Assembly: GCF_000971195.1 (NCBI RefSeq)
Contig: NZ_BBLZ01000001.1
Location: 600,667-664,666 of the forward strand
Reading direction: 5' to 3'
DNA: 64,000 nucleotides
From: Demequina soli
GTDB lineage: Bacteria; Actinomycetota; Actinomycetes; Actinomycetales; Demequinaceae
Positions 4,136 to 17,919 of the stretch are shown here, in pieces (the stretch's first letter is position 1; every line of letters begins with the position of its first letter). The notes under the pieces are model-generated. The model was not told the DNA's origin. It ran no database searches and saw nothing but the letters and a program-made list of their open reading frames with translations. The position numbers and the translations under genes were made by a program.

Positions 4136-5446
4136 CTATCGGGGGCGACGCAGCGCCTCCCGCAGGGGCGGGACCACCACGCCGGCGGCGGCCATGTCGG
4201 CGCGCGCCAGGCGCCGGTTGCGCAGCACCCCGGCGACCCCGATCGCCCACGGGATGAGCAGGGTCGCGAAGGCGACGCGGTAGGCGTCCAGGGAGTAGTC
4301 GGTGACGCCGGCGGGCGAGACCGCCTGGAGAGTCACGCCGACGAGCACGATGCCCGCGATGGTCGACACGAAGCCGCCGACGTTGACGAACCCGGTCGCG
4401 GCGCCCATCGCCTCCTCGGGGCCGAACGTGCGGGCGTAGTCGAGCGCGATGAGCGACACGGGCCCGCCCGCGCCGATCACCGCCATGAGCACCCCCAGCT
4501 CCCACACCGGCCGCGGCGTGTCCGGGACCAGGATCGCCACCCACGCGAGAAGCGTCGCGACGGCGGACGCGAGCACCAGCCAGCTGCGGCGCAGCGGGTG
4601 GCGCGCCGTGAACGCGCCCGCGAGCGGGCCGGCAGCCATCTTGGTGAGCGTGATGACCATGAGCAGCGCGCTCGCCTGGCCGAGCGTGAGCCCCTGCGTC
4701 GACACGAAGAACGGCACGCCCCACAGCAGCGCGACCGTGTTCGCCGAGCACAGCGACAGGAAGTGCGTCCAGAAGCCCAGGCGCGTACCCGCCGGGCGGG
4801 CGGCCGCGCGGATGGACGCGCGCAGGGACGATGCGGGGGCCGGGCCGGGCGACGCGGGCGGCTGGGCGGCGGGCACCCCGATGGCTCGCGCCGCGAGCGC
4901 GCCGACCGCGAGCGTCACCGCGGCGAGCACCGCGAAGGTGGCGTCCCAGCCGAGGCCGTGCAGCAGCCAGGCGACCGGGATCGAGGTCGCGAGCTGGCCG
5001 GCCTGGCCCACGAGCCCCGTCACCTGCACGAGCACGGGCACGCGGCGCGCGGGGAACCACAGCGGGATGAGCCGGCACGCCGAGATGAAGATGGGGGCGT
5101 CGCCCGCGCCGATGAGGACGCGCGCGAGGATCGCGAGCGGGAGCGACGTGGTGACGGCGAGCAGCGCGGTGCCGACGGTCATGAGGACGGCGCCCCCGAC
5201 CATGAGCCGGCGCGCTCCCCACCGGTCGAGCAGCGCGCCCGAGGGGAGCTGGAGCGCGGCATAGGTCGCGACCTGCGCGACCGCGAGGATCGACAGCCAC
5301 GCGGCCTCGATCCCGAAGCGGTCGAGCGCGTCCACGCCCGCGACGCCGAGCGCGGTGCGGTTGACGATCGCGACGAAGTACAGCGCCATGCCCGCGACGA
5401 GCACGAGCCAGGCGGCACGCGGCGCGCGGTCGGGCGGTGCGGTCAC
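4136..5446 (-). CDS. MFS transporter, paralogue 1 of 3
   Basis: A 436-residue membrane protein with the hydrophobic pattern of a 12-helix major facilitator permease. The loop 2-3 motif is LLDRWGARRLM. It starts at a GTG 3-4 bases after GGGAGG; TAGCCT further upstream may be the -10 box. It shares the N-terminal pattern RAPRAAW...YFVAIVNRTALGVAGV, the segment RVLIGAGDAPIFI and the C-terminal VVVPPLREALRR with the next two genes, so the three arose by tandem duplication. The substrate is unknown. Their position just downstream of the aromatic-catabolism operon makes an organic acid plausible, but that is only context. Confidence 0.85.
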   Translation of the reverse strand: MTAPPDRAPRAAWLVLVAGMALYFVAIVNRTALGVAGVDALDRFGIEAAWLSILAVAQVATYAALQLPSGALLDRWGARRLMVGGAVLMTVGTALLAVTTSLPLAILARVLIGAGDAPIFISACRLIPLWFPARRVPVLVQVTGLVGQAGQLATSIPVAWLLHGLGWDATFAVLAAVTLAVGALAARAIGVPAAQPPASPGPAPASSLRASIRAAARPAGTRLGFWTHFLSLCSANTVALLWGVPFFVSTQGLTLGQASALLMVITLTKMAAGPLAGAFTARHPLRRSWLVLASAVATLLAWVAILVPDTPRPVWELGVLMAVIGAGGPVSLIALDYARTFGPEEAMGAATGFVNVGGFVSTIAGIVLVGVTLQAVSPAGVTDYSLDAYRVAFATLLIPWAIGVAGVLRNRRLARADMAAAGVVVPPLREALRRPR

Positions 5447-5543
5447 GGGTCCTCCCAGGCTCGCCTCAGGCTAGGCGCGGCGCGGACCGGGCGCGCCGGA
5501 CCTCGGTCCCGTGCCCCCGTGGCCCCGCCCCCGCCCCCGCCCC

Positions 5544-5645
5544 CGATTCGCTCAGCACGGTCCCCATGCGGACACGCCGGCCTGGACACGCTCACATGCT
5601 CACGGTGCCCGCGTGTCGCGGGTCAGACCGTGCGCAGCAACGCGG
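5544..5645. repeat. Family B hairpin element, copy 1
   Basis: An imperfect inverted repeat: CTCAGCACGGT on the left faces ACCGTGCGCAGC on the right, with an inner pair GGACACGCCGG / CGCGTGTCGCGG. The same outer and inner arms recur at 49464-49566 and 51111-51210. It fills the gap between the start of MFS paralogue 1 and the stop of paralogue 2, beginning 20 bases after that stop in the direction of transcription. Confidence 0.7.
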
Positions 5646-5664
5646 CGGGCGGGCGCGCGGCGTG

Positions 5665-6963
5665 TCAGCCGCGCCGGCGGCGCAGGGACTCGCGCAGCGG
5701 CGGGACCACCACGCCCTCCCCCGCCATCGCCGCGCGCGTGCGCCGCCGCGAGGACAGCACGCCCGCGACGCCGACGGCCCACGGGATCACCAGCACGCCG
5801 AACGCGAGCCGGTACTCGTCGAGCGAGTACACGGTGGCGCCCGCGGGCGAGGCCACCTGCAGCACGAGCCCGACGGTGAGGACCGACAGGATGGTCGCGC
5901 CGAAGCCGCCGACGTTGACGAACCCGCTCGCGGTGCCCATGCGGCGGCGCTCGGTGAACGTGCGCGCGAAGTCGAAGCCCACGGCGGACGCGGGCCCGCC
6001 GAGCCCGATCGCGAGCGTGAAGAGCACGAGCTGCCACATGGGCCGCGGGGTGTCGAACGCGAGGAGGGTCGCGAAGGCGACGAACGTGAGCGACGCCGAG
6101 CCGAGCACCAGCCACGAGCGCCGCAGCGGGTACCGCCCCGTGAGCCACCCGATGACGGGGCCGCCCGCCATCGCCGACAGGGTGAGGCACGTGAGCAGCA
6201 GGCTCGCCTGGGCGGGGGTCTTCTCCTGCGCGGTGACGAAGAACGGCACGCCCCACAGCAGCGCGAGCGTGTTGACGGGGAACAGGGTGACGAAGTGCGC
6301 CCAGAAGCCCAGCCGCGCGCCCGAGACGCCGACCGTGCCGCGCACCGCCGCCCACATGCCCTCGGGGGCGTCCGCCGGGCCGTCGGCGGGCGGGTTGCGC
6401 AGGCCCAGGCCCGCCGCGACGCCGACCGCGACGCTCACGGCCGCGATGACGGAGAAGGTGGTCGACCAGCCGACGGAGTGCAGCAGGGCGGCCACCGGGA
6501 TCGCGGTGGCGAGCTGGCCCCCCTGGCCGATGAGGCCGGTCACCTGGACCAGGATCGGCACGCGTCGCGCGGGGAACCACAGCGCGATGAGGCGCGTGGC
6601 CCCGATGAAGATGGGCGCGTCGCCGGCGCCGATGAGCACCCGCGCGAGGATCGCGAGCGGCAGCGCGTGGGTGAACGCGAGCGCGGTCTGGCCGAGCGCC
6701 ATCACCACGAGGCCCGCGGACATGATCGCCCGCGCCCCGTACCGGTCCATGAGCCGGCCCGCCGGCACCTGCAGCACCGCGTACGCCGCGACCTGGGCCA
6801 CGGACAGCACCGCGAGGCCGGTCGCCTGGATCCCGAAGCGGTCGAGCGCCTCGACGCCCGCGACGCCCAGCACCGTGCGGTTGACGATCGCCACGAAGTA
6901 GGCGACCACGGCCGAGCCGTAGACGATCCACGCGGCGCGCGGCGCGCGCTCGTCAAGGCTCAT
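5665..6963 (-). CDS. MFS transporter, paralogue 2 of 3
   Basis: A 432-residue MFS permease starting MSLDERAPRAAWIVYGSAVV, with GAGGAG seven bases before the ATG. The loop 2-3 motif is LMDRYGARAIM. It is closely similar to its neighbours along the full length, including AIGLGGPASAVGFDFARTF near residue 320 and the tail VVVPPLRESLRRRRG. Twelve hydrophobic segments can be followed in the translation. The substrate is not evident. Confidence 0.87.
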   Translation of the reverse strand: MSLDERAPRAAWIVYGSAVVAYFVAIVNRTVLGVAGVEALDRFGIQATGLAVLSVAQVAAYAVLQVPAGRLMDRYGARAIMSAGLVVMALGQTALAFTHALPLAILARVLIGAGDAPIFIGATRLIALWFPARRVPILVQVTGLIGQGGQLATAIPVAALLHSVGWSTTFSVIAAVSVAVGVAAGLGLRNPPADGPADAPEGMWAAVRGTVGVSGARLGFWAHFVTLFPVNTLALLWGVPFFVTAQEKTPAQASLLLTCLTLSAMAGGPVIGWLTGRYPLRRSWLVLGSASLTFVAFATLLAFDTPRPMWQLVLFTLAIGLGGPASAVGFDFARTFTERRRMGTASGFVNVGGFGATILSVLTVGLVLQVASPAGATVYSLDEYRLAFGVLVIPWAVGVAGVLSSRRRTRAAMAGEGVVVPPLRESLRRRRG

Positions 6964-7043
6964 GCGGGTCTCCTCGTGGGGGCGCGGGTCACGCGGCCCG
7001 CCGGGTCAGTATCCACCCGGCCGGCGCATCGTCCGGGGACGCG

Positions 7044-8342
7044 TCAGCCGCGCACCCGCTGGAGCGCCTCGCGCAGGGTCGGCACCACGATGCCGTCGCG
7101 CTCGAGGTCGCGGCGCGCGAGGCGGCGGTGGTGGATGACGCCCCACAGCCCGACCGCCCACGGCACCACGAGCAGGGAGAACGCGATCCGGTACTCGCCG
7201 AGCGTGTACGTCGCCGCGCCGGGAGGCGACACCGCCTGGAGCGTGAGGCCCACGGTGAGCACCGCGACGATGGTGGCGACGAAGCCGCCCATGTTGACGA
7301 AGCCGCTGGCGGTCGCGAGGCGATCCTTCTCGGTGAAGGTGCGCGCGAAGTCGATGCCGACGATGGACACGGGGCCGCCGATGCCCGTCGCGACCATGAG
7401 GAGCGCCAGCTGCCACAGCGGCCGCGGGGTGTCGAAGGCGAGCACGGCGGCCCACGCGACCGCGGTGGTGATCGCGGAGCCGAGCACGAGCCACGTGCGC
7501 CGCAGCGGGTGGCGCGCGGCGAAGATGCCGGCGATCGGGCCGCTCGCCATCGCGGACACGGTCAGCACGCTCAGCAGCAGGCTCGCCTGCTTCGCGGACA
7601 CGCCCTGGCCGTCGACGAGGAACGGCACGCCCCACAGCAGGGCGACCGTGTTGGCCATGAACGGCGTGACGAAGTGCACCCAGAAGCCCAGGCGCGTGCC
7701 GGCGGGCCCGGTCGCGCCGCGCACGGCGGCCCACAGCCGCTCGCGCTCGAGCTCCTCCTGCGTGGCGGGCGGCCTGCGCAGCCCCAGGCCGGCGCCGACC
7801 GCGACCACCACGCCCGCGGCGGCGAGGATCGAGAAGGTCGCCGACCAGCCGGCCGCGTGCAGCAGCGCCGCGACGGGGATGGCGCTCGCGAGCTGGCCGG
7901 CCTGGCCGATGAGGCCGGTCACCTGGACCAGCACGGGCACCTGGCGCGGCGGGAACCATTCGCTGACCAGGCGGCTCGCGCCGATGAAGATGGGCGCGTC
8001 GCCCGCGCCGATGAGGACGCGCGCGACGATCGCGAGGCTCAGCGAGTGCGCGTGCGCGAGGACCAGCTGGCCGGCGGACATGACGAGCAGCCCCGTCACC
8101 ATGACCGCGCGCGGGCCCAGCTTGTCGATCAGCCGTCCCGCGGGGATCTGCATGAGCGCGTACGCGCCGATCTGCGTGACGGAGAGCATCGCGAGGCCCG
8201 TGGCCTCGATCCCGAAGCGGTCGACGGCCACGGGGCCGGCGACGCCGAGCGCCGTGCGATGCACCACGGCGACGAAGTAGGCGGCCACCGCCGCGACGAA
8301 CACGATCCAGGCGACGCGCGGCGCGCGTCCGTCGTGGGACAT
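7044..8342 (-). CDS. MFS transporter, paralogue 3 of 3
   Basis: A 432-residue MFS permease starting MSHDGRAPRVAWIVFVAAVA. The frame is open far upstream, but this ATG aligns exactly with the start of paralogue 2, and GGAGGAT precedes it. The loop 2-3 motif is LIDKLGPRAVM and the tail is VVVPTLREALQRVRG. It is the nearest of the three transporters to the catabolic operon and follows the last operon gene by about 240 bases that contain a family A element. A role in aromatic-acid uptake or export is possible from position only. Confidence 0.87.
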   Translation of the reverse strand: MSHDGRAPRVAWIVFVAAVAAYFVAVVHRTALGVAGPVAVDRFGIEATGLAMLSVTQIGAYALMQIPAGRLIDKLGPRAVMVTGLLVMSAGQLVLAHAHSLSLAIVARVLIGAGDAPIFIGASRLVSEWFPPRQVPVLVQVTGLIGQAGQLASAIPVAALLHAAGWSATFSILAAAGVVVAVGAGLGLRRPPATQEELERERLWAAVRGATGPAGTRLGFWVHFVTPFMANTVALLWGVPFLVDGQGVSAKQASLLLSVLTVSAMASGPIAGIFAARHPLRRTWLVLGSAITTAVAWAAVLAFDTPRPLWQLALLMVATGIGGPVSIVGIDFARTFTEKDRLATASGFVNMGGFVATIVAVLTVGLTLQAVSPPGAATYTLGEYRIAFSLLVVPWAVGLWGVIHHRRLARRDLERDGIVVPTLREALQRVRG

Positions 8343-8440: not shown

Positions 8441-8559
8441 CCCCGATGCACCCCTCCACACAACGCGACGAATGAATCGTGTCAATGCTGCAACTCCCGG
8501 CACGAACCCCGAGAGCAGCGGTCACCAACGCAGAATCCGTGTGGAGAGGCGCATCGGGG
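8441..8559 (+). repeat. Family A element, copy 1 (core 8456-8544)
   Basis: The 89-bp core runs from CCACAC to GTGTGG. The flanks extend the stem: CCCCGATGC on the left matches GCATCGGGG on the right, giving 21-base arms with two mismatches. The core begins 34 bases beyond the ligJ stop codon in the direction of transcription. The inner part carries TGAATCGTGTCAA and CTGCAACTC, shared with copies 2 and 3. Confidence 0.85.
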
Positions 8560-8578
8560 CGCCACGGTGGCGAGGCGG

Positions 8579-9589
8579 TCACGCCCGCGCGAGCGCCGCC
8601 GCGAGCCGCGGATAGACCCGCATCGCGTTGCCCGACAGCACCGCCTCGCGGTCCGCGTCGCTCAGCCCCGCGGCCTCGACGTAGCGCAGCGTGTCGTCGA
8701 AGTAGTGGCCGGTCTCGGGGTCGATCCCGCGCACCGCGCCCACCATCTCCGAGCCGAACAGGACGTTCGCGTGCGGGATCACCGACATCAGCAGGTCGAT
8801 CCCCGGCTGGTGGTAGACGCACGTGTCGAAGAACACGTTGCCCAGGAGGTGGTCCGCGAGCGCGGGCCTGCCGAGCATGTCCGCGAGGCCACGGTAGCGG
8901 CCCCAGTGGTACGGCACCGCTCCCCCGCCGTGCGGGATCACCAGGCGCAGGGCCGGGAGGTCGGCGAACAGGTCGCCCTGGAGCAGCTGCATGAACGCGG
9001 TCGTGTCGGCGTTCATGTAGTGCGCGCCGGTCGCGTGGAACGCCGGGTTGGCGGACGCGGAGACGTGGATCATGGCGGGCAGGTCGTGCGCGACGAGCGT
9101 CTCGTACAGCGGGTACCAGTAGCGGTCGGTGAGCGGCGGCGCGGTCCAGCGGCCGCCGCTGGGATCGGGGTTGAGGTTGACGCCCACGAAGCCCTCGGCG
9201 ACGCGCCGCTCGACCTCGCGCACCGCGGCGTCGAGCCCCTCGCCCGGCGCCTGCGGCAGCTGGGCGACGCCCGCGAACACCCCCGGGAACAGGCCGACCA
9301 CGCGCGCGATGAGGTCGTTGCATGCCTCCGTCCACGCCACCGAGGTGGACAGGTCCCCCAGGTGGTGGCCCATCGCGGAGGCGCGCGGCGAGAAGATCGT
9401 GAGGTCCGCGCCGCGCTCGCGGATGAGCCGCAGCTGGTTGGACTCGATGGTCTCGCGGATGTCCGCGTCGGGGATGTCCGGATAGGCCGGCGCGGCGACG
9501 CCCTCCTCCCACGCCGCGAGCTGCGCCTCGCGCCATGCGGCGTGCGCGGCGGGCGCGGTCGTGTAGTGCCCGTGGCAGTCGATGATCAC
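8579..9589 (-). CDS. ligJ: 4-oxalomesaconate hydratase (LigJ/GalB-type amidohydrolase)
   Basis: A 336-residue amidohydrolase-superfamily protein predicted to hydrate 4-oxalomesaconate to 4-carboxy-4-hydroxy-2-oxoadipate. The N-terminal metal motif is IDCHGHYTT. Further metal or substrate positions are MIHVSAS, IPHGGGAVPYHWGRYRGLAD and LFGSEMVGAVRGIDPETGHY; the last strings are as I remember them in LigJ of sphingomonads and distinguish it from decarboxylases such as ACMSD. The GTG start overlaps the stop of the preceding gene (GTGA), so it is the translationally coupled last gene of the operon. Confidence 0.88.
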   Translation of the reverse strand: MIIDCHGHYTTAPAAHAAWREAQLAAWEEGVAAPAYPDIPDADIRETIESNQLRLIRERGADLTIFSPRASAMGHHLGDLSTSVAWTEACNDLIARVVGLFPGVFAGVAQLPQAPGEGLDAAVREVERRVAEGFVGVNLNPDPSGGRWTAPPLTDRYWYPLYETLVAHDLPAMIHVSASANPAFHATGAHYMNADTTAFMQLLQGDLFADLPALRLVIPHGGGAVPYHWGRYRGLADMLGRPALADHLLGNVFFDTCVYHQPGIDLLMSVIPHANVLFGSEMVGAVRGIDPETGHYFDDTLRYVEAAGLSDADREAVLSGNAMRVYPRLAAALARA

Positions 9590-10494
9590 GCGTCCACCTC
9601 GGCGTCCAGGCCCGCCGCCGCCCGCACGGCGTCGACGAGCCCCACGGTGGACGATGCGGGGAGCACCTCCCCGTAGCGCGCCGCCCACCGCTGCCGCTCG
9701 ACGGTGGCGGTCGCCATCCACGGCGTCACCCCCGCGTCGGCGACGGTCGCGGCGGCCTCCTCCATCTCCTCCGCGCGCCGCACCCCGTGCTGGAGCGAGC
9801 GGGACATGAAGTAGCCGGCGATCGCGTCCCAGTCGGCCTCGGGCAGGATGTTCGACAGCGAGTCGAGCACGTCGCGCTCGACGCCGTACGCGCGGGCCGC
9901 GAGCAGCGACTCCGACAGCAGCGCCTCGAGCCCCTTGACCACCACGGAGCGGCACAGCTTGGTCGCGGCGGCCACCCCGATCTCCTCCGAGCCCGCGGTC
10001 GCCCCGACCAGCCCGTAGGACGGGGCGTCGACCAGGAACGATGCGGCGTGCGGCCCGCCGAGCAGGAACGGCGAGGCGAGGCGGCGCGGCTCGATGGGCG
10101 ACATCAGCGCCGCCTCGACGTAGCGCCCACCCGAGGCCTCGACCGCCGCGCCGGCCTCGCGCTTGTGGCCCGGCGAGCTCGAGTTGAGGTCCACGAACCA
10201 CGCGCCAGGCGCGAGCCCCACGGCGGCGGACGATGCGGCGGCCACGGAGTTCATGGCCGTCACCGCGGACACCACGAGGGTCGCGCCCGCGACGGCCTCG
10301 ACCGCCGAGGCCGCCGGCGTCACGCCCAGGGCGCGGGCGTTCGCCGACGCGCGCGACGCATCGTCCCCGAAGGCCGTGTCCCACGCCGCGATCTCCGTGA
10401 CGCCGAGCGCCCGCAGGTCCTCGACGAAGACCCGACCCACCTCGCCGAGCCCGATGAGGGCGACCCGCGGCGCGCCCGCCCCGGCGCCGGTCAT
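9586..10494 (-). CDS. NAD(P)-dependent dehydrogenase with DUF1932 C-terminal domain
   Basis: A 302-residue protein with an N-terminal Rossmann fold (VALIGLGEVGRVFVEDLRAL, residues about 9-28) and a helical C-terminal domain of the 6-phosphogluconate-dehydrogenase-like DUF1932 type (EALLSESLLAARAYGV region). VDLNSSSPGHKR matches the substrate-binding loop of beta-hydroxyacid dehydrogenases. It overlaps both neighbours by ATGA/GTGA. In an oxalomesaconate operon it may oxidise or reduce an intermediate such as the ring-cleavage semialdehyde; that role is inferred. Classic LigC belongs to a different (Gfo/Idh/MocA) family. Confidence 0.78.
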   Translation of the reverse strand: MTGAGAGAPRVALIGLGEVGRVFVEDLRALGVTEIAAWDTAFGDDASRASANARALGVTPAASAVEAVAGATLVVSAVTAMNSVAAASSAAVGLAPGAWFVDLNSSSPGHKREAGAAVEASGGRYVEAALMSPIEPRRLASPFLLGGPHAASFLVDAPSYGLVGATAGSEEIGVAAATKLCRSVVVKGLEALLSESLLAARAYGVERDVLDSLSNILPEADWDAIAGYFMSRSLQHGVRRAEEMEEAAATVADAGVTPWMATATVERQRWAARYGEVLPASSTVGLVDAVRAAAGLDAEVDA

Positions 10495-11510
10495 CGCCGC
10501 GCGTCCCCGCTGGGACGCTTCCCCAGCATCCCGGTGGGCCGGTAGACGCGGTCGTCCTGCCCCTCCATGGGCGGGGTGCCGTGCGTGTGGAACGTCTCGA
10601 TGGTGCCCAGCCCCCACGCCTGCCCGCGCCTGCGCTCGGGCTCCGTCCACGTCACCAGCGGCCAGTCGGGCGCGAGCACCAGGCGGGTGAGCGGGTTGCA
10701 CAGCTCGATGCGGTTGCCGCCCGGCTCGAACACGTAGAGGAAGAAGGTCTGCTGGATGGCGTGCTTGTGGGGGCCGGTCTCGATGTGGACGCCCTGGTCG
10801 AGGCACAGGTCGGCGGCGCGCAGGATCTCCTCCCGCGTGTCGGTGGCGAACGCGAGGTGGTGGAGGCGGCCCGAGCCGCCGGTCCAGTCCTCGGTGTAGA
10901 CCACGTCGTAGGACTTCTGCCCGAACGAGACCCACTGCGCGGCGATGCGGCCGTCGTCCATGCGGATCTGCTCGGTGGGGCGCGCGCCGAGGAGGTCGAC
11001 GTGGAACGACGACGCCTCGAGCGGGCGCGCGGCGAGGAAGTTGATGTGGTCGAAGCGGCGCACCCCGACGCCGCGGTTGGGCTTGGCCTGCGCCTGGTTC
11101 TTCAGCCCCGCGGCGAGGTTCTCGGGGGCCTCGTACCAGACGGTGTCGTAGTACAGCGCGATCTCGTGGCCGTCCGGGTCGGCGGTGACGAACGTGCGGC
11201 CGCGCCCGGCGACGCCGTCCTCCCACTCCCCGGTCCCGCCCGCGTCGAGGATCGCGGTGACGCGCGCCTCGAGGGCCTCCTCGCTGGCGGCGCGGAACGC
11301 GGTGCGCCGGATCCCGGCCTGCGGGGCCTGGCACGCGATGATCGAGCACTCCTCGTAGTCGTCGTACGCGCGCAGGAACGCCATGCCGTCGACGCGGCGC
11401 ACCTCGGTCATGCCGAGGATGTTCTCGAAGAACCACACGGTCGCGTCGAGGTCGGGCGTGTTCAGCATCGCGTAGCCGAGGTGGGCGATCCAGCCGCGGG
11501 GTGCGGGCAT
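10491..11510 (-). CDS. Two-domain extradiol ring-cleavage dioxygenase (VOC superfamily)
   Basis: A 339-residue protein with two glyoxalase-like (VOC) domains, at about residues 8-130 and 150-290. The C-terminal domain keeps the type I extradiol iron ligands: His in RRFDHINF, His in GRLHHLAF, and Glu in GGNRIELCNP. The ATG is preceded by AAGGAG. By operon position it should open the ring of the imported aromatic acid to feed the oxalomesaconate steps. Known protocatechuate and gallate 4,5-dioxygenases (LigAB, GalA/DesB) belong to the unrelated LigB family, so this would be a non-homologous replacement. The substrate is not readable from sequence. Confidence 0.82.
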   Translation of the reverse strand: MPAPRGWIAHLGYAMLNTPDLDATVWFFENILGMTEVRRVDGMAFLRAYDDYEECSIIACQAPQAGIRRTAFRAASEEALEARVTAILDAGGTGEWEDGVAGRGRTFVTADPDGHEIALYYDTVWYEAPENLAAGLKNQAQAKPNRGVGVRRFDHINFLAARPLEASSFHVDLLGARPTEQIRMDDGRIAAQWVSFGQKSYDVVYTEDWTGGSGRLHHLAFATDTREEILRAADLCLDQGVHIETGPHKHAIQQTFFLYVFEPGGNRIELCNPLTRLVLAPDWPLVTWTEPERRRGQAWGLGTIETFHTHGTPPMEGQDDRVYRPTGMLGKRPSGDARR

Positions 11511-11523
11511 CGTTGCTCCTTCG

Positions 11524-12576
11524 TCAGGGCCGGGGGAAGACCCGGCCGTCCATGATCATGCGGGCCGTCCGGACCACCCGCGCGGGCCCCACGCCGGTGC
11601 GGTCGCCCGCGGCGGGGTCGACGTGAAGGTCCAGGTAGCCGGTGGGGTGCTCGACGCGCAGGGGGGCGCCTGCGGCCGGCGCGACGGCGAGCCCGTCGGC
11701 GACCGTGCCGGGCACGCGCACCGCCGCGGCCACGGACGAGGCGCCGAGCACCCCGATGGCCTCGTGGACCCGGAACGGGATGAAGCTGCGCGTGCGGATC
11801 GCGCCGCCCGCGGCGGGCGCGGACACGAGCACGATCTTGGGCGTGGTGGTGGTCTCGGGGGTGCCGTCGATGCCCATGAGCGGGAACGCGGCGGCCCGGA
11901 TGCGCACGATGCGCTCCACCAGGGCGGCGTCCGCCTCGAGGTCGGCGGGCGCCTCCCCCCCGGACAGCCCCAGGTCGGCGGCGCGCACGAGCACGGACTT
12001 CATGCCGTTGTCGATGAGCGTGGCCTCGACCCCGTCGAGCACGTCGACGGGACGGCCGGTGGGCAGCAGCGCGCCGGACGATCCCTCGAGCGCGACCTCG
12101 ATGGGCGCCGCGGTGCCGGGCACCCCGGAGATCGCGGCGTCCCCCGCATAGGTCACCTCGCCGCCCGGGGTGCGGACGGTGAGGGCCGCGATCGCGCCCG
12201 TGTTGACCAGCCGCACGCGCACCTCGGTGGCGCCGTCGCGCGCCGGGACCAGCCCGCGGTCGATCGCGAACGGCGCGACCGCCGCGAGCATGTTGCCGCA
12301 CGTCTGCGAGGTCGAGACCACCGCATCGTCCACCACCACCTGGAGGAACAGGTAGTCGACGTCGGCCGTCGCGTCCGGCGACGGGCTCACGACGGCGACC
12401 TTGCTGGTGAGCGGGTGCGCCCCGCCCAGGCCGTCGATCTGGCGCACGTCGGGGCTGCCCATGATGCGCAGCAGCAGGCCGTCGCGCGCGGCGGGGTCGG
12501 CGGGCAGGTCGGAGGCGAGGAACACGGGGCCCTTCGAGGTGCCGCCGCGCATGAGCGCGCAGGGGATGCCGGTCAT
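11524..12576 (-). CDS. galD: 4-oxalomesaconate tautomerase (PrpF/GalD family)
   Basis: A 350-residue PrpF-family isomerase, predicted to interconvert keto and enol forms of oxalomesaconate. Family signatures are MRGGTSKGPVFLASDLP at the N-terminus, QIDGLGGAHPLTSKVAVV near residue 46, the catalytic-type STSQTCGNMLAAV near residue 85, and FRVHEAIGVLGA near 260. The ATG overlaps the aldolase stop by four bases. PrpF proteins of the methylcitrate cycle look similar; the LigJ and LigK partners favour GalD. Confidence 0.86.
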   Translation of the reverse strand: MTGIPCALMRGGTSKGPVFLASDLPADPAARDGLLLRIMGSPDVRQIDGLGGAHPLTSKVAVVSPSPDATADVDYLFLQVVVDDAVVSTSQTCGNMLAAVAPFAIDRGLVPARDGATEVRVRLVNTGAIAALTVRTPGGEVTYAGDAAISGVPGTAAPIEVALEGSSGALLPTGRPVDVLDGVEATLIDNGMKSVLVRAADLGLSGGEAPADLEADAALVERIVRIRAAAFPLMGIDGTPETTTTPKIVLVSAPAAGGAIRTRSFIPFRVHEAIGVLGASSVAAAVRVPGTVADGLAVAPAAGAPLRVEHPTGYLDLHVDPAAGDRTGVGPARVVRTARMIMDGRVFPRP

Positions 12577-13268
12577 GCGGGCCCGGCCTCGGGGTGGCGG
12601 CGGTAGGTCACCCCGAGCTCGGCGAGCACGGGGCGCATGCCGTAGCGGTCGAGCCCGAGCTCGCCCGCGAGGAACGCGTCCCGCGTGGCCTCCTCCTTGG
12701 CGAGGCGGGCGCGCGAGGCGTCCAGCGCATCGTCCGCCCGCGCGCGCGGGACCACCACGATGCCGTCGTCGTCGGCGACCAGGATGTCGCCCGCATCGAT
12801 GACCTGGCCGCCCACGATCACGGGCACGTTGACCGCGCCTGGCGTGTTCTTGACGGTGCCCATGACGTTGATGTGGCGCGCCCACACCGGGAAGCCCATG
12901 TCACGCAGCTCCTGCGTGTCGCGCACCCCGGCGTCGATGATCGCGCCGGCGACGCCGCGGCGCTGCAGGCCCGTCGCGAACAGCTCGCCGAACATGCCGT
13001 GCGAGGACGGCTCGCGGGTGGTGACGACGAGGATGTCGCCGGGCCCGCACTGCTCGATCGCCGCGTGGATCATGAGGTTGTCGCCGGGCCAGCTCATCAC
13101 CGTGACCGCCGTGCCCGCGAGGCGCGCCCCCTGCTGGATGGGGCGCAGGTCGGAGATCTGGCCGGTGCGGCCCATCGCCTCGTGCACCGTCGCGGCGCCG
13201 ATGCGCGAGAACGCGTCGACGGTCGCGCGCGGCGGCCGCGGCGGGTCGGTGAGGATCACCGTCTCCAT
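12573..13268 (-). CDS. ligK: 4-carboxy-4-hydroxy-2-oxoadipate aldolase / oxaloacetate decarboxylase (LigK/GalC)
   Basis: A 231-residue RraA-fold class II aldolase, expected to split 4-carboxy-4-hydroxy-2-oxoadipate into pyruvate and oxaloacetate. Signatures are IGAATVHEAMGRTG near residue 25, GDILVVTTREPSSHGMFGELFATGLQRRGVAG, and IIDAGVRDTQEL with the metal-region Asp. VVADDDGIVVVPR is near residue 170. RraA proper lacks these substrate-pocket residues and is usually shorter. One base separates it from the upstream ABC ATPase gene, and ATGA overlap links it to the tautomerase. Confidence 0.88.
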   Translation of the reverse strand: METVILTDPPRPPRATVDAFSRIGAATVHEAMGRTGQISDLRPIQQGARLAGTAVTVMSWPGDNLMIHAAIEQCGPGDILVVTTREPSSHGMFGELFATGLQRRGVAGAIIDAGVRDTQELRDMGFPVWARHINVMGTVKNTPGAVNVPVIVGGQVIDAGDILVADDDGIVVVPRARADDALDASRARLAKEEATRDAFLAGELGLDRYGMRPVLAELGVTYRRHPEAGPA

Positions 13269-13269
13269 G

Positions 13270-14148
13270 TCAGGCGCCCCCGCCGGGCAGGGGCGCGTCG
13301 GGCCGGTCGCCGCGCTTGGCGCGCTGGATGAGCGCGTAGACGTGGCCGCGCAGCTCGCCGAAGCGCGCGTCGGAGCGGGTGGTGAGCTGGTCGCGCTTGG
13401 CGGGCAGGTCCACGCGCACGTCCTCCATGAGCACGGTCGGGCGGTTCGACAGGACGATGACGCGCTCGCCCAGGTAGACGGCCTCGTCGATGTCGTGGGT
13501 GACGAAGAGCACGGTGACGCCGAGGCGCTTCCACAGGGAGCGCACCAGGTCCTCGAGCTCGGCGCGGGTCTGCGCGTCGACCGCCGCGAACGGCTCGTCC
13601 ATGAGGAGCACGGTGGGCTCGTACGCGATCGCGCGGGCGATCGCGACGCGCTGCTGCATGCCGCCGGACAGCTGCCACGGGTGCTGGTCGGCGGCCTCGG
13701 TGAGGCCCACCTCCTCGAGCGCCGTGAGCGCCTTGGCGCGCCGCTCCACCTTGCCCAGGCCCTTCTCCTTGAGGGGCAGCTCGACGTTCTGGCGCACCGT
13801 CATCCACGGGAACAGCGAGCGGCCGTACTCCTGGAACACGACCGCCATGCCCTGAGGCGGGCCCGTCACGGTCGCGCCGTCGAGGACCACCTCGCCGGAG
13901 GTGAGCTCGAGCAGGCCCGCGATCGAGCGCAGCAGGGTGGTCTTGCCGGCGCCCGAGGGACCCACGACGCACACGAGCTCGCCCTTGCGGATCGAGAAGT
14001 CGAGGCGGCGGATCGCCTCGACCTGGGGGCGCCCGGGGGTGTCGTACGTCTTCTGGACGCCGCGCAGGTCCAGGGCGACCGCATCGTCCCGCGCGGGGGT
14101 CTCCCGCTCGGGTCGGAGCGAGGTCAGGGGGGCCTTCAGGATGGACAT
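13270..14148 (-). CDS. NitT/TauT-type ABC transporter ATP-binding protein
   Basis: A 292-residue ATPase with Walker A VGPSGAGKTTLL, Q-loop VVFQEYGRSLFPW, signature LSGGMQQRVAIARA, Walker B VLLMDEPFAAVD and the switch His in VLFVTHDIDEA. It closes an importer whose permeases and binding protein lie directly upstream, with no gap. Family: SsuB/TauB/NrtD-like. A C-terminal stretch after residue 250 (RFGELRGHVYALIQRAKRG) is typical of this branch. The imported substrate is probably the aromatic acid degraded by the downstream genes. Confidence 0.93.
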   Translation of the reverse strand: MSILKAPLTSLRPERETPARDDAVALDLRGVQKTYDTPGRPQVEAIRRLDFSIRKGELVCVVGPSGAGKTTLLRSIAGLLELTSGEVVLDGATVTGPPQGMAVVFQEYGRSLFPWMTVRQNVELPLKEKGLGKVERRAKALTALEEVGLTEAADQHPWQLSGGMQQRVAIARAIAYEPTVLLMDEPFAAVDAQTRAELEDLVRSLWKRLGVTVLFVTHDIDEAVYLGERVIVLSNRPTVLMEDVRVDLPAKRDQLTTRSDARFGELRGHVYALIQRAKRGDRPDAPLPGGGA

Positions 14149-14934
14149 CTACTCTCCTCGCTCGATCTGACGCTGCCCCTGGTACCAGGCGAGCATCCGG
14201 TTCTCGACGGCGCGGAAGAGCGCCGCCAGCACGACTCCGATGAGGCCGAGCACGATGATGCCGGTCCACATCTGGGGGATGGCGAAGCTCCTCTGGAACT
14301 GCACGATCGCGGCGCCGAGGCCGCGGTTGGCCCCGAACAGCTCCGAGATCACCATGAGGATCACGCCGATGGACAGGGCCTGGCGGGCGCCCGCGAAGAT
14401 GCGGGGGCTCGCGCCGGGCAGGACCACGAACGTCAGGCGGCGCCACGTGCTCAGCCGGTAGCTGCGCGCCGTGTCGGTGAGGGTCGGCTCGAGGCCGCGC
14501 ACCCCCTCGACCGTGTTGAGCAGGATGGGCCACAGGCAGCCGAGCGCGATGGTGAGGACCTTGCCGAGCGAGCCGGTGTAGCCCGCGAACAGGGCGATGA
14601 TCGGCACCATCACGGGCGGCGGGATGGCCCGGAAGAACTCGAGGACGGGCTCGGACAGCGCACGCAGGCGGGGCATGAGACCGATCGCGGTGCCGAGCAC
14701 GATGCCGACGATCACCGCGAGCGCGTAGCCGATGGCGAGCCGCGTGAGGCTGGGCACCACGTCGCCGACGAAGCGGTCCCACGTCCACGTGGTGGGGAAC
14801 GTCTGGATGATCTTCTGCAGCGGCGGCCAGAACGGGCTGGTCGAGTCCGCGGACGCGACCCACCAGGCGGCGAGCAGGACGATCGGCAGGCCGAGCGCGA
14901 TGGCGGCGCGGCGGGCCAGGGCGACGATGCTCAT
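14149..14934 (-). CDS. NitT/TauT-type ABC transporter permease 2
   Basis: A 261-residue inner-membrane permease starting MSIVALARRAAIALG. The EAA-type cytoplasmic loop is LEPTLTDTARSYRLSTWRRLTFVVLPGASPRIFAGARQAL (key residues T-A-R-S, P-G-A-S-P). Six hydrophobic segments are visible. Its ATG overlaps the stop of permease 1 (ATGA), and its stop abuts the ATPase start. The two permeases probably form a heterodimer. Confidence 0.9.
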   Translation of the reverse strand: MSIVALARRAAIALGLPIVLLAAWWVASADSTSPFWPPLQKIIQTFPTTWTWDRFVGDVVPSLTRLAIGYALAVIVGIVLGTAIGLMPRLRALSEPVLEFFRAIPPPVMVPIIALFAGYTGSLGKVLTIALGCLWPILLNTVEGVRGLEPTLTDTARSYRLSTWRRLTFVVLPGASPRIFAGARQALSIGVILMVISELFGANRGLGAAIVQFQRSFAIPQMWTGIIVLGLIGVVLAALFRAVENRMLAWYQGQRQIERGE

Positions 14935-15767
14935 GCGGCCTCGCTCCTCACGGACGGGTGCCACCACAGGGCCTTGCGCTCGACCACGCGGGCGAGCAGG
15001 TTGACCGCGACGCCGATGAGGCCGACCACGATGACGAGCGCGTAGGTCTCGGCGACGGCGCCGGAGCTCTGGGCGACGCCGATGTCGCGGCCGAGGCCGG
15101 GGACGCCGATGACGAGCTCGGCGGTGATCTCGAGGATGAGCGCGACGGCCGCCGCGAGGCGGAACGCGGTCATGATGTACGGCAGCGCGGTCGGGTAGAT
15201 GACGCTGCGGGCGACGCGCAGCGGCCCGAAGCGGTACGAGCGCGCGGTGTCCCGCGCGACCGGGTCCACGTCCGCGACGCCGTAGAGCACCTGGACCAGC
15301 ACCTGCCAGAACGCCGCGTAGAGCACGAGCAGGAACGCCGACGCCGGCTTGGTGCCGTACATGAGCACCACGAGCGGGATGAGCGCGACCGACGGGATGG
15401 GGCGCAGGAACTCGATGGTGGAGCGCGTCACGGCCCGCAGCCACGGCAGGCTGCCGATGACGAAGCCGGCGAGGATGCCGAGCGCCATCGCGGCGCCGAG
15501 GCCCACGGCCCAGCCGCGCACGGTCAGCCACAGGGACTGCCAGAAGTCGGCCTCGCCGAGCAGCTGGAACAGCTTCGCGTACATCTCGCTGACCGGGGGA
15601 AGGAAGGCGGGGTTGACGATGCCGGTGCGGGAGAGCGTCTCCGCTCCGACCAGGACGATCGCGACCCCGAGGACGCCGAGCCAGGCGTCCGGGCGGCGCC
15701 GGCCGCGCCGCGCGCGGGGGGTGCCGCGTGTCGCGGCGGGTGCCAGCGTGGCTGGGCTCGAGCTCAC
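14931..15767 (-). CDS. NitT/TauT-type ABC transporter permease 1
   Basis: A 278-residue permease with a basic N-terminal extension (GTPRARRGRRRPDAWLG) and about six membrane segments. The EAA loop reads DPVARDTARSYRFGPLRVARSV followed by YPTALPYIMTAFRLA. It sits after the binding-protein gene, separated by 73 bases that contain a strong hairpin, and overlaps permease 2 by four bases. Confidence 0.9.
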   Translation of the reverse strand: MSSSPATLAPAATRGTPRARRGRRRPDAWLGVLGVAIVLVGAETLSRTGIVNPAFLPPVSEMYAKLFQLLGEADFWQSLWLTVRGWAVGLGAAMALGILAGFVIGSLPWLRAVTRSTIEFLRPIPSVALIPLVVLMYGTKPASAFLLVLYAAFWQVLVQVLYGVADVDPVARDTARSYRFGPLRVARSVIYPTALPYIMTAFRLAAAVALILEITAELVIGVPGLGRDIGVAQSSGAVAETYALVIVVGLIGVAVNLLARVVERKALWWHPSVRSEAA

Positions 15768-15803
15768 GGGTGCTCCGAATCTTCGTCGATTCCAGGGGGT
15801 GGT

Positions 15804-15835
15804 GCCGGGGCCGCGGCTCGCGCCGCGGCCCCGGC
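15804..15835. other. Perfect 14-bp hairpin between binding-protein and permease genes
   Basis: Arms 15804-15817 and 15822-15835 are perfectly complementary GC-only sequences with a TCGC loop. It begins 6 bases beyond the stop of the solute-binding-protein gene and lies before the permease start. Such intra-operon hairpins often cause partial termination or protect the 3' end, so that the binding protein is made in excess over the membrane subunits; that function here is inferred. Confidence 0.7.
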
Positions 15836-15840
15836 CGGGA

Positions 15841-16863
15841 TCACTTGAGCGCCGACAGGTCGGGCACCTCGGTGAGGAAGCCGTCGGTGACGGCCAGCTG
15901 GGCGAGCAGGTCGACGCTGTTGGAGTCGATCGTGCTGGGCCACTTGGGCAGGACGACCGCCTGCTGCGTGGCCTCGTCCATGCTCGTGTAGGTCGCGAGC
16001 ACCGCCCGGACGGCGTCGGGGTTGGAATTCGCGTAGTCGAGCGACTTCTCCATGGCCGCCTTGAAGGCGTCCACGACCGCGGGGTCCGACGACGCGTAGT
16101 CGGCGGACGTGAAGTACTCGGCGATCATGAGGTTGGGGTCCGTCAGCGCGTAGTTCGAGCCGAGGTTGGTGAGGTCCTGGCCCGTGCCGACGGTGAGGAA
16201 CGGCTCGACGACCTGGCCGGCGTCGACGTCGCCCGACACGATCGCGGGGACGATGTCGGGGAACGCGAGCTCGACGTAGGTGATGGTCGACGGGTCGCCG
16301 CCCGCGTCGGTGACGGCCTTGTTGATGGTCGACGTGTTGATGTTGTTGAGCGTGTTGACGGCGACCTTCTTGCCCTCGAGGTCCTTGTAGCCCGAGATGC
16401 CGGAGTCCGCCTTGACGAGCACGCCGCCGAAGTCCTTCATCTCGTCGCCCGTCGTGGACACGCCGGGCGCGACCGCCTGGATCCCGAGGGCGTTGGACTG
16501 GGCGAGGATCAGGGACGTCGTGTTGCTGAAGCCGAACTGGAACTGGCCGCTCACCACGCCGGGGACGATCGCCGCGCCGCCCTGGGCGAGCTCGAGGGTG
16601 ACGTTGAGGCCCTCGTCGGTGAAGAAGCCCTCCTGCACGCCGAGGTAGATGGGCGCCACGTCGAGGATGGGGATGACGCCGACCGTGATGTCGGTGGGCT
16701 CCATCATCGCGCCGGACGAGGCCGACTCGCTGGGCATGGAGCCGGACGACGACTCCGTGGTGCTCGGGCTGTCCGAGCTGCACGCGGCGAGCGCGAGGAC
16801 GCTCACCGCGGCCATCGAGCCGAGCGCGGCACGCAGCCGAGCGGACGGGGACTTGATCTGCAT
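15841..16863 (-). CDS. ABC transporter substrate-binding lipoprotein (NMT1/THI5-like)
   Basis: A 340-residue lipoprotein: MQIKSPSARLRAALGSMAAV, then lipobox LALAAC, with Cys near residue 26, followed by a Ser/Thr-rich linker. The mature part has the NMT1/SsuA-type fold pattern (VGVIPILDVAPIYLGVQEGFF, then VALAFP-type lobes). The frame stays open upstream, but this ATG has AAGGAGGA at the right distance and starts a proper signal peptide. First gene of the nine-gene operon; the promoter and GntR operator lie just upstream. Confidence 0.92.
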   Translation of the reverse strand: MQIKSPSARLRAALGSMAAVSVLALAACSSDSPSTTESSSGSMPSESASSGAMMEPTDITVGVIPILDVAPIYLGVQEGFFTDEGLNVTLELAQGGAAIVPGVVSGQFQFGFSNTTSLILAQSNALGIQAVAPGVSTTGDEMKDFGGVLVKADSGISGYKDLEGKKVAVNTLNNINTSTINKAVTDAGGDPSTITYVELAFPDIVPAIVSGDVDAGQVVEPFLTVGTGQDLTNLGSNYALTDPNLMIAEYFTSADYASSDPAVVDAFKAAMEKSLDYANSNPDAVRAVLATYTSMDEATQQAVVLPKWPSTIDSNSVDLLAQLAVTDGFLTEVPDLSALK

Positions 16864-16920: not shown

Positions 16921-16950
16921 CAAGATTGTTGACAATCTTGTAGACGATAT
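16921..16950. promoter_or_regulatory. Operator(s) of the GntR regulator upstream of the catabolic operon
   Basis: 16921-16940 is a near-perfect palindrome: CAAGATTGT, two bases, ACAATCTTG. It contains ATTGTTGACAAT, one base different from ATTGTCGACAAT found before the regulator gene. A weaker third copy, TTGTAGACGAT, overlaps it on the right (from 16938). The sites lie about 60-85 bases before the binding-protein start, in the only AT-rich stretch of the region, so they probably overlap the promoter. Confidence 0.75.
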
Positions 16951-16995
16951 TGGCAACTTTTCGGTCACGATGCGCGCGGCCGGCCCGCGCGGGCC

Positions 16996-17622
16996 TCACC
17001 CGATGCCGCGGAGGGCCTCGATCACCGACCCGATGTGCGCCCTCATCGCCGCCTCGGCACCGTCGGGGTCGCGCCCGACCACGGCGTCGATGATCGCCTG
17101 GTGCTGGTGGACCGACACCTTCGAGCGGCCCGGCACGCGCGACAGCGCGAACTGGTGGCGGACCATCTGGCCGTGGAGCTGGGCGATGATGCCGCTGGCC
17201 TTCTCGTGGCGCGCGATGTCGCGCAGCGAGGAGTGCAGGCGCGCGTTGAGGTCGCTGTAGAGCGCGAGCTCCCCCGCCGCCACCGCGTCGTGCATCTGGC
17301 GCCCGATCGCCTCGAGCCCCGTCGCCTCCTCGTCGCTCACCCGCTCGGCGGCGCGGCGCGCGATGAGCCCCTCGACCACCTGGCGGACCTCGGTGATCTC
17401 GCACGCCTCCTCAAGCGATATCTCGCGGATGCGGGCGCCGACGTTGCGTTGCCTCTCGACCAGGCCGTCGGCCTCGAGCGCCTGCAGCGCGGCGCGGATC
17501 GCGAAGCGGCTCGCGTCGAACGCCTCGCAGAGGTCACTCTCGACCAGGCGCTGCCGGGGCGCGAACTCGCCGCGCAGGATCGCGGCCCTCAGCTCGTCCA
17601 GCACGCGGGGATCGGCGGCCAT
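16996..17622 (-). CDS. GntR-family regulator with FCD ligand domain
   Basis: A 208-residue regulator. Residues about 5-70 form the winged helix (VLDELRAAILRGEFAPRQRLVESDLCEAF then FAIRAALQALEADGLVERQRNVGARI). Residues 80-205 form the all-helical FCD domain; metal/ligand-type His residues are visible in LNARLHSSLRD and VSVHQHQAIIDAV. ATG at 17622 is chosen over longer options because GGAGGGAGGG precedes it. The same palindrome stands before this gene and before the catabolic operon, so it probably represses both until an aromatic ligand binds. Confidence 0.9.
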   Translation of the reverse strand: MAADPRVLDELRAAILRGEFAPRQRLVESDLCEAFDASRFAIRAALQALEADGLVERQRNVGARIREISLEEACEITEVRQVVEGLIARRAAERVSDEEATGLEAIGRQMHDAVAAGELALYSDLNARLHSSLRDIARHEKASGIIAQLHGQMVRHQFALSRVPGRSKVSVHQHQAIIDAVVGRDPDGAEAAMRAHIGSVIEALRGIG

Positions 17623-17672: not shown

Positions 17673-17686
17673 TATTGTCGACAATA
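17673..17686. promoter_or_regulatory. GntR autoregulatory operator
   Basis: A perfect 14-bp palindrome, TATTGTCGACAATA, lies 51 bases before the regulator start. Its core matches the operator before the binding-protein gene. Even-length palindromes of this type are known for FCD-type GntR proteins. Confidence 0.75.
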
Positions 17687-17714: not shown

Positions 17715-17787
17715 GCGCGCCGCATGGGCCAGCTGTCTCCGCGCGCCGCGTGCGCCAGCTGTCTCCGCGCGCCGCATGCGCCTCTCC
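17715..17787. repeat. 26-bp tandem repeat (two full units and a partial)
   Basis: Units at 17715-17740 and 17741-17766 differ at two positions, and a truncated third unit from 17767 merges into the left arm of family A copy 2. Each unit begins GCGCGCCGC and ends CAGCTGTCTCC. Short tandem duplications also touch family A copies 3 and 4. Confidence 0.85.
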
Positions 17788-17884
17788 ACACATCGCGCGG
17801 GATGAATCGTGTCAACTCTGCAACTCGCGCCATGAACCCCGAGAAGAGCGGTCCCCGATGCAGATCGTGTGTGGAGAGGCACAT
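17776..17884 (+). repeat. Family A element, copy 2 (core 17786-17874)
   Basis: An 89-bp core between CCACAC and GTGTGG, about 80% identical to copy 1. The arms ATGCGCCTCTCCACAC and GTGTGGAGAGGCACAT pair with one mismatch. The core begins 46 bases beyond the stop of the ROK gene in its direction of transcription. Confidence 0.85.
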
Positions 17885-17919
17885 CGGGGCCAGGGTCAGG
17901 GACGGGACGCGCGGCGCGG

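Follow-up and report, generated by a model that had tools for sequence, protein, structure and literature searches.

The DNA analysed here (the window, a 64,000-nucleotide stretch of the Demequina soli genome) carries on its minus strand, from position 16863 to 8579, one tightly packed unit encoding, in order, an ABC importer, LigK, GalD, a VOC-type (type I) extradiol dioxygenase, a DUF1932 dehydrogenase, and LigJ. On the genomic evidence presented below, we consider it likely that this unit imports and degrades gallate and that the VOC protein is a gallate dioxygenase yielding 4-oxalomesaconate (OMA) directly. Gallic acid is a building block of plant tannins. To our knowledge, the VOC fold differs from that of every known gallate dioxygenase, and a search of the open-access literature found no VOC-type gallate dioxygenase. 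In several lineages of bacteria, relatives of the protein whose database label is catechol dioxygenase or simply VOC protein adjoin the same set of pathway genes.

The unit comprises ten minus-strand genes, from a GntR regulator (17622) to LigJ (8579). A first-pass annotation of this DNA gave the pathway and importer genes at the same positions and on the same strand; its range of 8579-16863 omitted the regulator gene at 16996-17622, which is part of the unit. The features are as follows.

17673-17686, no strand: predicted operator TATTGTCGACAATA, a perfect palindrome, upstream of the GntR gene
16996-17622, minus strand: GntR/FCD-family regulator (Pfam GntR and FCD; start chosen at MAADPR)
16921-16952, no strand: two overlapping near-copies of the TATTGTCGACAATA operator, predicted, in front of the binding-protein gene
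15841-16863, minus strand: substrate-binding lipoprotein of the ABC importer, NMT1 type (Pfam NMT1, 105.7 bits)
14931-15767, minus strand: ABC permease 1 (Pfam BPD_transp_1)
14149-14934, minus strand: ABC permease 2 (open reading frame and start; kept in sister loci), overlapping permease 1 by 4 bases
13270-14148, minus strand: ABC ATPase (Pfam ABC_tran, 119.6 bits)
12573-13268, minus strand: LigK/GalC, 4-carboxy-4-hydroxy-2-oxoadipate (CHA) aldolase, RraA fold (PRK09262 and 3noj)
11524-12576, minus strand: GalD/LigU, OMA tautomerase, PrpF fold (NF033377 and 6p3j)
10491-11510, minus strand: type I (VOC) extradiol dioxygenase, proposed gallate dioxygenase (TIGR03211, iron ligands, Tyr201, clade)
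9586-10494, minus strand: DUF1932/NAD_binding_2 dehydrogenase (Pfam DUF1932, 65.6 bits)
8579-9589, minus strand: LigJ, OMA hydratase, amidohydrolase fold (PDB 6dxq)

The 4-base overlap with the preceding gene seen for permease 2 recurs at GalD, DUF1932, and LigJ, and an AAGGAG ribosome site lies in front of the VOC gene.

The three lower-pathway enzymes match characterized proteins, as the first-pass annotation had claimed, so that an OMA tautomerase, an OMA hydratase, and a CHA aldolase are encoded together. The best PDB match of LigJ was the 4-oxalomesaconate hydratase 6dxq/6dwv (524 bits). GalD matched the solved (4E)-oxalomesaconate Delta-isomerase 6p3j at 349 bits and narrowly passed the NF033377 model (442.7 bits; cut-off, 440), a strict threshold below which four of the five GalD proteins of sister loci just fall (428-437 bits). 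LigK scored 301.4 bits against PRK09262 (cut-off, 179) and 246 bits against the CHA aldolase structure 3noj, and it fell below the TIGR02798 cut-off (264.0 versus 304.5).

The VOC protein has two VOC domains and a complete 2-His-1-carboxylate site (His155, His218, and Glu269), in agreement with the first-pass description. Both the TIGR03211 and HpaD models aligned over almost its full length, with a score of 288.4 bits against TIGR03211, the catechol 2,3-dioxygenase equivalog (cut-off, 320.2). The closest solved relatives were 9wgj (330 bits), followed by 7q2a and 3lm4 at 199 bits. With XylE and homoprotocatechuate 2,3-dioxygenase, the protein shares the two-domain fold, the iron ligands, His250, Tyr259, and mostly Asn157 and Trp193; it differs from them in its GPHKHA motif, in its linkage to OMA genes, and in lacking the second-sphere catalytic His of type I enzymes, which we take to be HPCD His200 and XylE His199. 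Tyr201 stands in its place, an assignment that rests on spacing from Trp193 (Trp193+8), as the phmmer alignment to 1f1x sets the gap elsewhere. PDB 9wgj, deposited as "Catechol 1,2-dioxygenase," shares the Tyr in a KSYD motif and has SPSKHA where the window protein has GPHKHA; a literature search with the entry code gave no relevant paper.

In an alignment of 112 VOC rows, in which one genome appears twice among the Streptomyces-type rows and the eight rows of the group labelled f19 come from five genomes, the iron ligands were conserved. Residue 201 was Tyr in 7/7 Demequina-type, 76/76 Streptomyces-type, 13/13 proteobacterial, and 8/8 f19 rows, and His in seven of the eight remaining rows; the tree places the eighth, L007, within the clade. 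His248, in the GPHKHA motif, occurred in 96/96 Demequina-type, Streptomyces-type, and proteobacterial rows, and the f19 rows had Ala. In the tree, the 33 clade rows grouped together (97/96; 98% of 200 bootstrap trees), with an outgroup of only seven rows, all flagged as long branches. That the VOC proteins form one clade with Tyr at the outgroups' catalytic-His position is among the reasons for proposing gallate cleavage. Arg293 of homoprotocatechuate dioxygenase was considered as a marker of carboxylate binding and dropped, as the column picked (294) was not conserved.

The genes surrounding this clade were surveyed in 101 neighbourhoods, namely the window and 100 loci viewed for 9 kb on each side where the locus reaches. 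Eighty of the loci were the best 80 of 584 confirmed matches and the remainder were picked from plasmid and genome matches; duplicates (L086-L095, L099, and L109), loci that lack a VOC of this clade, and outgroups (L096, L097, and L133-L137) were left out. Since 27 of the 100 loci extend less than 9 kb on one side, absences there are weaker. LigK was found in 97 neighbourhoods, a hydratase (GalB or LigJ) in 90, GalD in 88, DUF1932 in 23, a tannase in five, and LigB/GalA, LigI, and LigC-like proteins (24-26% identity) in two each. The association with OMA genes recurs in Actinomycetota and in Alpha- and Gammaproteobacteria, with differing gene orders. Six of the seven Demequina-type loci hold GalD and DUF1932, and in the seventh, Demequina lignilytica L006, GalD is cleanly absent from the interval separating LigK from VOC, and the genome holds no match to it. 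Among 76 loci from Streptomyces and other Actinomycetota, 74 carry LigK and GalD, none carries LigI, one carries DUF1932, and the two LigC-like matches were found here; a Streptomyces hydratase, the one compared with PDB, was GalB-type (5cgz, 271.6 bits). At the other two, L007 and L075, LigK, GalD, DUF1932, and a hydratase were all not seen, L075 lying at a contig edge. The 13 proteobacterial loci comprise seven with GalD and DUF1932, three with DUF1932 only, one (Roseibium) with GalD only, and two (L082 and L100) with neither, and the five f19 loci read GalB-LigK-VOC-DUF1932 without GalD. Separately, among 246 actinobacterial genomes, GalD exceeded its cut-off in four, the same four that encode a VOC protein of 64-100% identity, although three of these belong to one genus and the independent cases are thus fewer than four. 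The next-best VOC protein had 50% identity, and six more genomes had GalD below cut-off and no VOC protein above 32%.

Under the proposed scheme, gallate would arrive free or be liberated from tannin esters by an enzyme of the tannase family whose gene lies elsewhere in the genome, and would be taken up by the ABC importer, for which the single dedicated substrate suggested at first pass is plausible. Using Fe(II) and O2, the VOC enzyme would then cut between C3 and C4 to give the tricarboxylate OMA, formed directly because the neighbouring carbon bears a third hydroxyl, and neither LigC nor LigI would therefore be needed. GalD would tautomerize OMA, LigJ would hydrate it, and LigK would split the hydration product into pyruvate and oxaloacetate. 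In the protocatechuate route, a dehydrogenase and a lactonase are required between ring cleavage and OMA. The absence of both from most clusters, which are Streptomyces-type, fits gallate and not protocatechuate.

A passage of PMC12314914 describes direct conversion of gallate to OMA by the GalA, GalB, GalC, and GalD pathway of Pseudomonas putida KT2440. The course from gallate through OMA to pyruvate and oxaloacetate is common to that pathway and the scheme proposed here, as are GalD- and GalC-type enzymes; a GalB-type hydratase occurs in the Streptomyces relatives. The window differs in having LigJ instead of GalB, an additional ABC importer, and a VOC protein in place of GalA, a gallate dioxygenase of the kind that PMC4250580 assigns to the LigB superfamily; DesB is likewise of LigB type. 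With the sphingomonad LigABCIUJK pathway for protocatechuate 4,5-cleavage, the window shares LigJ, LigU/GalD, and LigK homologues; no LigAB or LigI was found in the host, and the window has VOC and DUF1932.

Comparison of the host with its sister species further supports a substrate other than protocatechuate. The host genome (3.0 Mb; assembly 99.28% complete) gave no match to the LigB fold (PF02900). It encodes two Amidohydro_2 proteins, LigJ and one other that gave no match to the LigI query. These negatives cover the whole genome for the LigB fold and the Amidohydro_2 proteins for LigI, whereas LigC was not searched genome-wide. The first-pass annotation had named a LigAB or GalA gene elsewhere, co-induced with the operon, as evidence that would count against its reading; LigAB is missing from the host, although five sister species have it. 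At its locus, all five of these Demequina genomes read pobA-iclR-lysR-ligI-ligAB-ligC, and one of their LigAB proteins, the one scanned, is of the fused type (PRK13372, 867 bits; cut-off, 837). At that place the host reads pobA-iclR-pcaHG, with pobA and iclR 72% and 77% identical to the sister copies and both pcaHG subunits over their cut-offs. The VOC operon is kept in all five sisters, and its occurrence together with LigAB suggests different substrates for the two. The host, then, probably sends protocatechuate through 3,4-cleavage, yet it keeps the OMA operon, which must therefore be fed by something else. VOC was the only feeder candidate found, and cleavage of gallate by an unrelated fold, one of two options raised at first pass, gains support from this exchange within a genus, from the synteny across lineages, and from some tannase neighbours. 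A further weak intradiol-dioxygenase match besides pcaHG was seen in the host (36.3 bits; contig C14, 515493-515741, locus L119).

The tannase neighbours, near five of the 101 copies, also argue for gallate. An Agrobacterium pAt cluster reads PIG-L(GalB-like)-VOC-LigK-GalD-tannase, and one Mumia locus joins a 54%-identical binding protein and GalB-LigK-GalD-VOC genes to a tannase. The host has a tannase-family gene (368 bits) on another contig, and the family occurs in 10 of 20 further genomes, with strong matches in three (one sister Demequina, Mumia, and a Nonomuraea). The link is real but not general. LigB-family genes elsewhere were also followed up. The Actinotalea and Mumia genomes gave partial LigB matches (107.5 and 88.7 bits), and six f19 genomes with the GalB-LigK-VOC-DUF1932 cluster gave none. 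A Nonomuraea genome gave four, the best modelling as 3-carboxyethylcatechol 2,3-dioxygenase (500 bits; cut-off, 291); on that ground its LigB gene 10 kb from the tannase was rejected as a competing gallate dioxygenase.

Several observations weigh against the proposed gallate reading. The best NCBIfam model for the protein is catechol 2,3-dioxygenase, albeit below cut-off. LigB is present in 5/5 other Demequina genomes tested, and a section of PMC8431788 reports that a fused-type LigAB can take gallate, with 44% of its protocatechuate activity. In these sisters the lower enzymes of the VOC operon probably also serve protocatechuate, as the LigAB locus showed no additional LigJ or LigK. In three Streptomyces-like genomes (G128, G161, and G182), proteins encoded outside the VOC cluster match the LigB family at 89-121 bits, and two Roseomonas clusters hold VOC and a LigB-family enzyme together. 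Strong tannase matches occur in only one of five sister Demequina, and feruloyl esterases belong to the same family. Streptomyces supplies most of the 101 loci, so the counts are not independent; at five of the 74 Streptomyces-type loci that have LigK and GalD, no hydratase was visible. Finally, three clade members (L007, L082, and L100) have no gal genes nearby, the L100 strain carrying galBCD-DUF1932 on another plasmid.

Alternatively, VOC may cleave protocatechuate at the 4,5 position, with DUF1932 oxidizing the semialdehyde as LigC does and some other hydrolase replacing LigI. DUF1932 lies near VOC in 23 of the neighbourhoods and overlaps the LigI gene in Roseomonas, and f19 loci L113-L115 carry a DUF6282-type gene directly upstream of GalB. 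We nevertheless regard this explanation as improbable: DUF1932 was not seen near 73 of the 74 Streptomyces-type clusters that carry LigK and GalD, the Diaphorobacter DUF1932 sits with a true LigC, and the host handles protocatechuate with pcaHG. The same cluster and Diaphorobacter observations leave unsupported the other option raised at first pass, in which a different aromatic acid enters and DUF1932 processes its product, and they led us to drop DUF1932 as a LigC substitute, an idea prompted by the Roseomonas overlap. At L114, the gene upstream of GalB (10490-11428, minus strand) encodes a DUF6282 protein by Pfam, possibly a lactonase or hydrolase, with similar open reading frames at L113 and L115.

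It is similarly unlikely that VOC prefers 3-O-methylgallate or another methoxylated trihydroxybenzoate, with gallate secondary. A VanA-type O-demethylase gene lies near the Pantoea copy, annotated Rieske/VanB genes lie near the Roseomonas copies, and GCV_T-family genes, presumably LigM-like O-demethylases, lie near f19 copies, preceded at L111 and L114 by the same type of operator as the unit described here. However, the unit has no esterase for a methyl-ester product, and upstream O-demethylases, like tannases, would yield gallate itself. Least probable is that VOC is an unrelated catechol-type dioxygenase that happens to lie among OMA genes supplied by a different enzyme: its best model and the copies lacking neighbouring gal genes would fit, but the host genome gave no LigB-fold match that could supply the operon, and the linkage to OMA genes is seen repeatedly, in differing gene orders, across Actinomycetota, Alpha-, and Gammaproteobacteria.

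The DUF1932 protein beside the putative gallate dioxygenase combines NAD_binding_2 and DUF1932 domains and is not of the Gfo/Idh/MocA family to which LigC belongs; its Rossmann motif GxGE and Lys179 are invariant in 16 aligned sequences. A search of the open-access literature found no function for DUF1932. GalD, DUF1932, or both occur in 97/97 neighbourhoods with LigK. Seven genomes (six f19 and D. lignilytica) have DUF1932 and no GalD match anywhere. GalD without any DUF1932 in the genome is found in Mumia, G161, and G182; in G128 and in the L009, L016, and L018 genomes, a DUF1932 gene lies somewhere in the genome, with none seen at the cluster. In Diaphorobacter, DUF1932 shares one operon with LigC, alongside LigAB-LigC-LigI, and occupies the slot between ligK and ligI, which in the Novosphingobium order ligKUI, given in a passage of PMC12710314, is held by ligU. 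Elsewhere it lies near an annotated gallate dioxygenase (Pseudomonas oryzihabitans) and adjoins LigK alone in Azospirillum lipoferum. This distribution suggests a DUF1932 role at the OMA step, and the protein may act in the OMA segment of the pathway as an accessory, NAD(P)-dependent enzyme. A bolder, doubtful proposal is that the VOC proteins are a second, fold-unrelated, Tyr-for-His class of gallate dioxygenases, of type I, across Actinomycetota and Proteobacteria and that, in addition, DUF1932 is an alternative OMA isomerization enzyme, the latter point being drawn from the 97/97 loci and the seven GalD-less genomes. Several lineages with both GalD and DUF1932 argue against simple redundancy. 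A DUF1932 gene also lies inside a tricarballylate (tcuAB) operon on a Pacificitalea plasmid (L127, 5995-6858), hinting at tricarboxylate-related substrates.

The loci nearest to the window operon, five Demequina and one Actinotalea (the Demequina group, n = 6), all keep the GntR gene as first gene. The 17-base operator pattern has six strand-matches in 64 kb against 0.04 expected, confined to the two places listed above, and both sites lie at corresponding places in five of the six Demequina-group loci, the exception being Actinotalea. Among the 14 loci scanned, which include these six, Streptomyces L009, L010, and L030 had one site near the GntR gene start and a near-copy before an MFS transporter gene, Mumia L008 had one site, and two Nonomuraea loci (L018 and L084) had none. 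Probably the GntR protein acts at ATTGTCGACAAT-type operators to keep the unit repressed, with relief on inducer binding.

The unit is flanked by a 115-base element (8446-8560 and 17776-17890; 82% identical, with terminal inverted repeats of about 20 bases) that folds into a long hairpin and has 11 full or partial genome matches, both flanks included; it resembles a small mobile or regulatory element that does not code for protein. The pair was rejected as the edges of a mobile unit because of these 11 matches and because the upstream neighbours recur in a sister species. Upstream, a ROK regulator, what we take to be a cyclase-like FAD protein, and an adjoining P-type ATPase with a C-terminal hemerythrin domain (20483-22786, minus strand) stand, by eye, in the same order in sister Demequina L150. 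Directly downstream are three tandem MFS transporter genes (4136-8330, minus strand) whose starts look alike by eye. At L081, the product of 5007-5885 has 4-sulfomuconolactone hydrolase as its best NCBIfam model (below cut-off) and 2-pyrone-4,6-dicarboxylate hydrolase as its best solved match (262 bits), a possible naming trap.

In sum, replacement of the LigB-type gallate dioxygenase by a VOC-fold enzyme would, if true, account for a capacity of many actinobacteria, and of some rhizobia and enterobacteria, to break down gallate from tannins, and the database names catechol 2,3-dioxygenase and VOC family protein would need correcting. A natural Tyr-for-His variant would be useful for examining the acid-base step of extradiol dioxygenases, and an uncharacterized dehydrogenase family, DUF1932, would be tied to one segment of a pathway.

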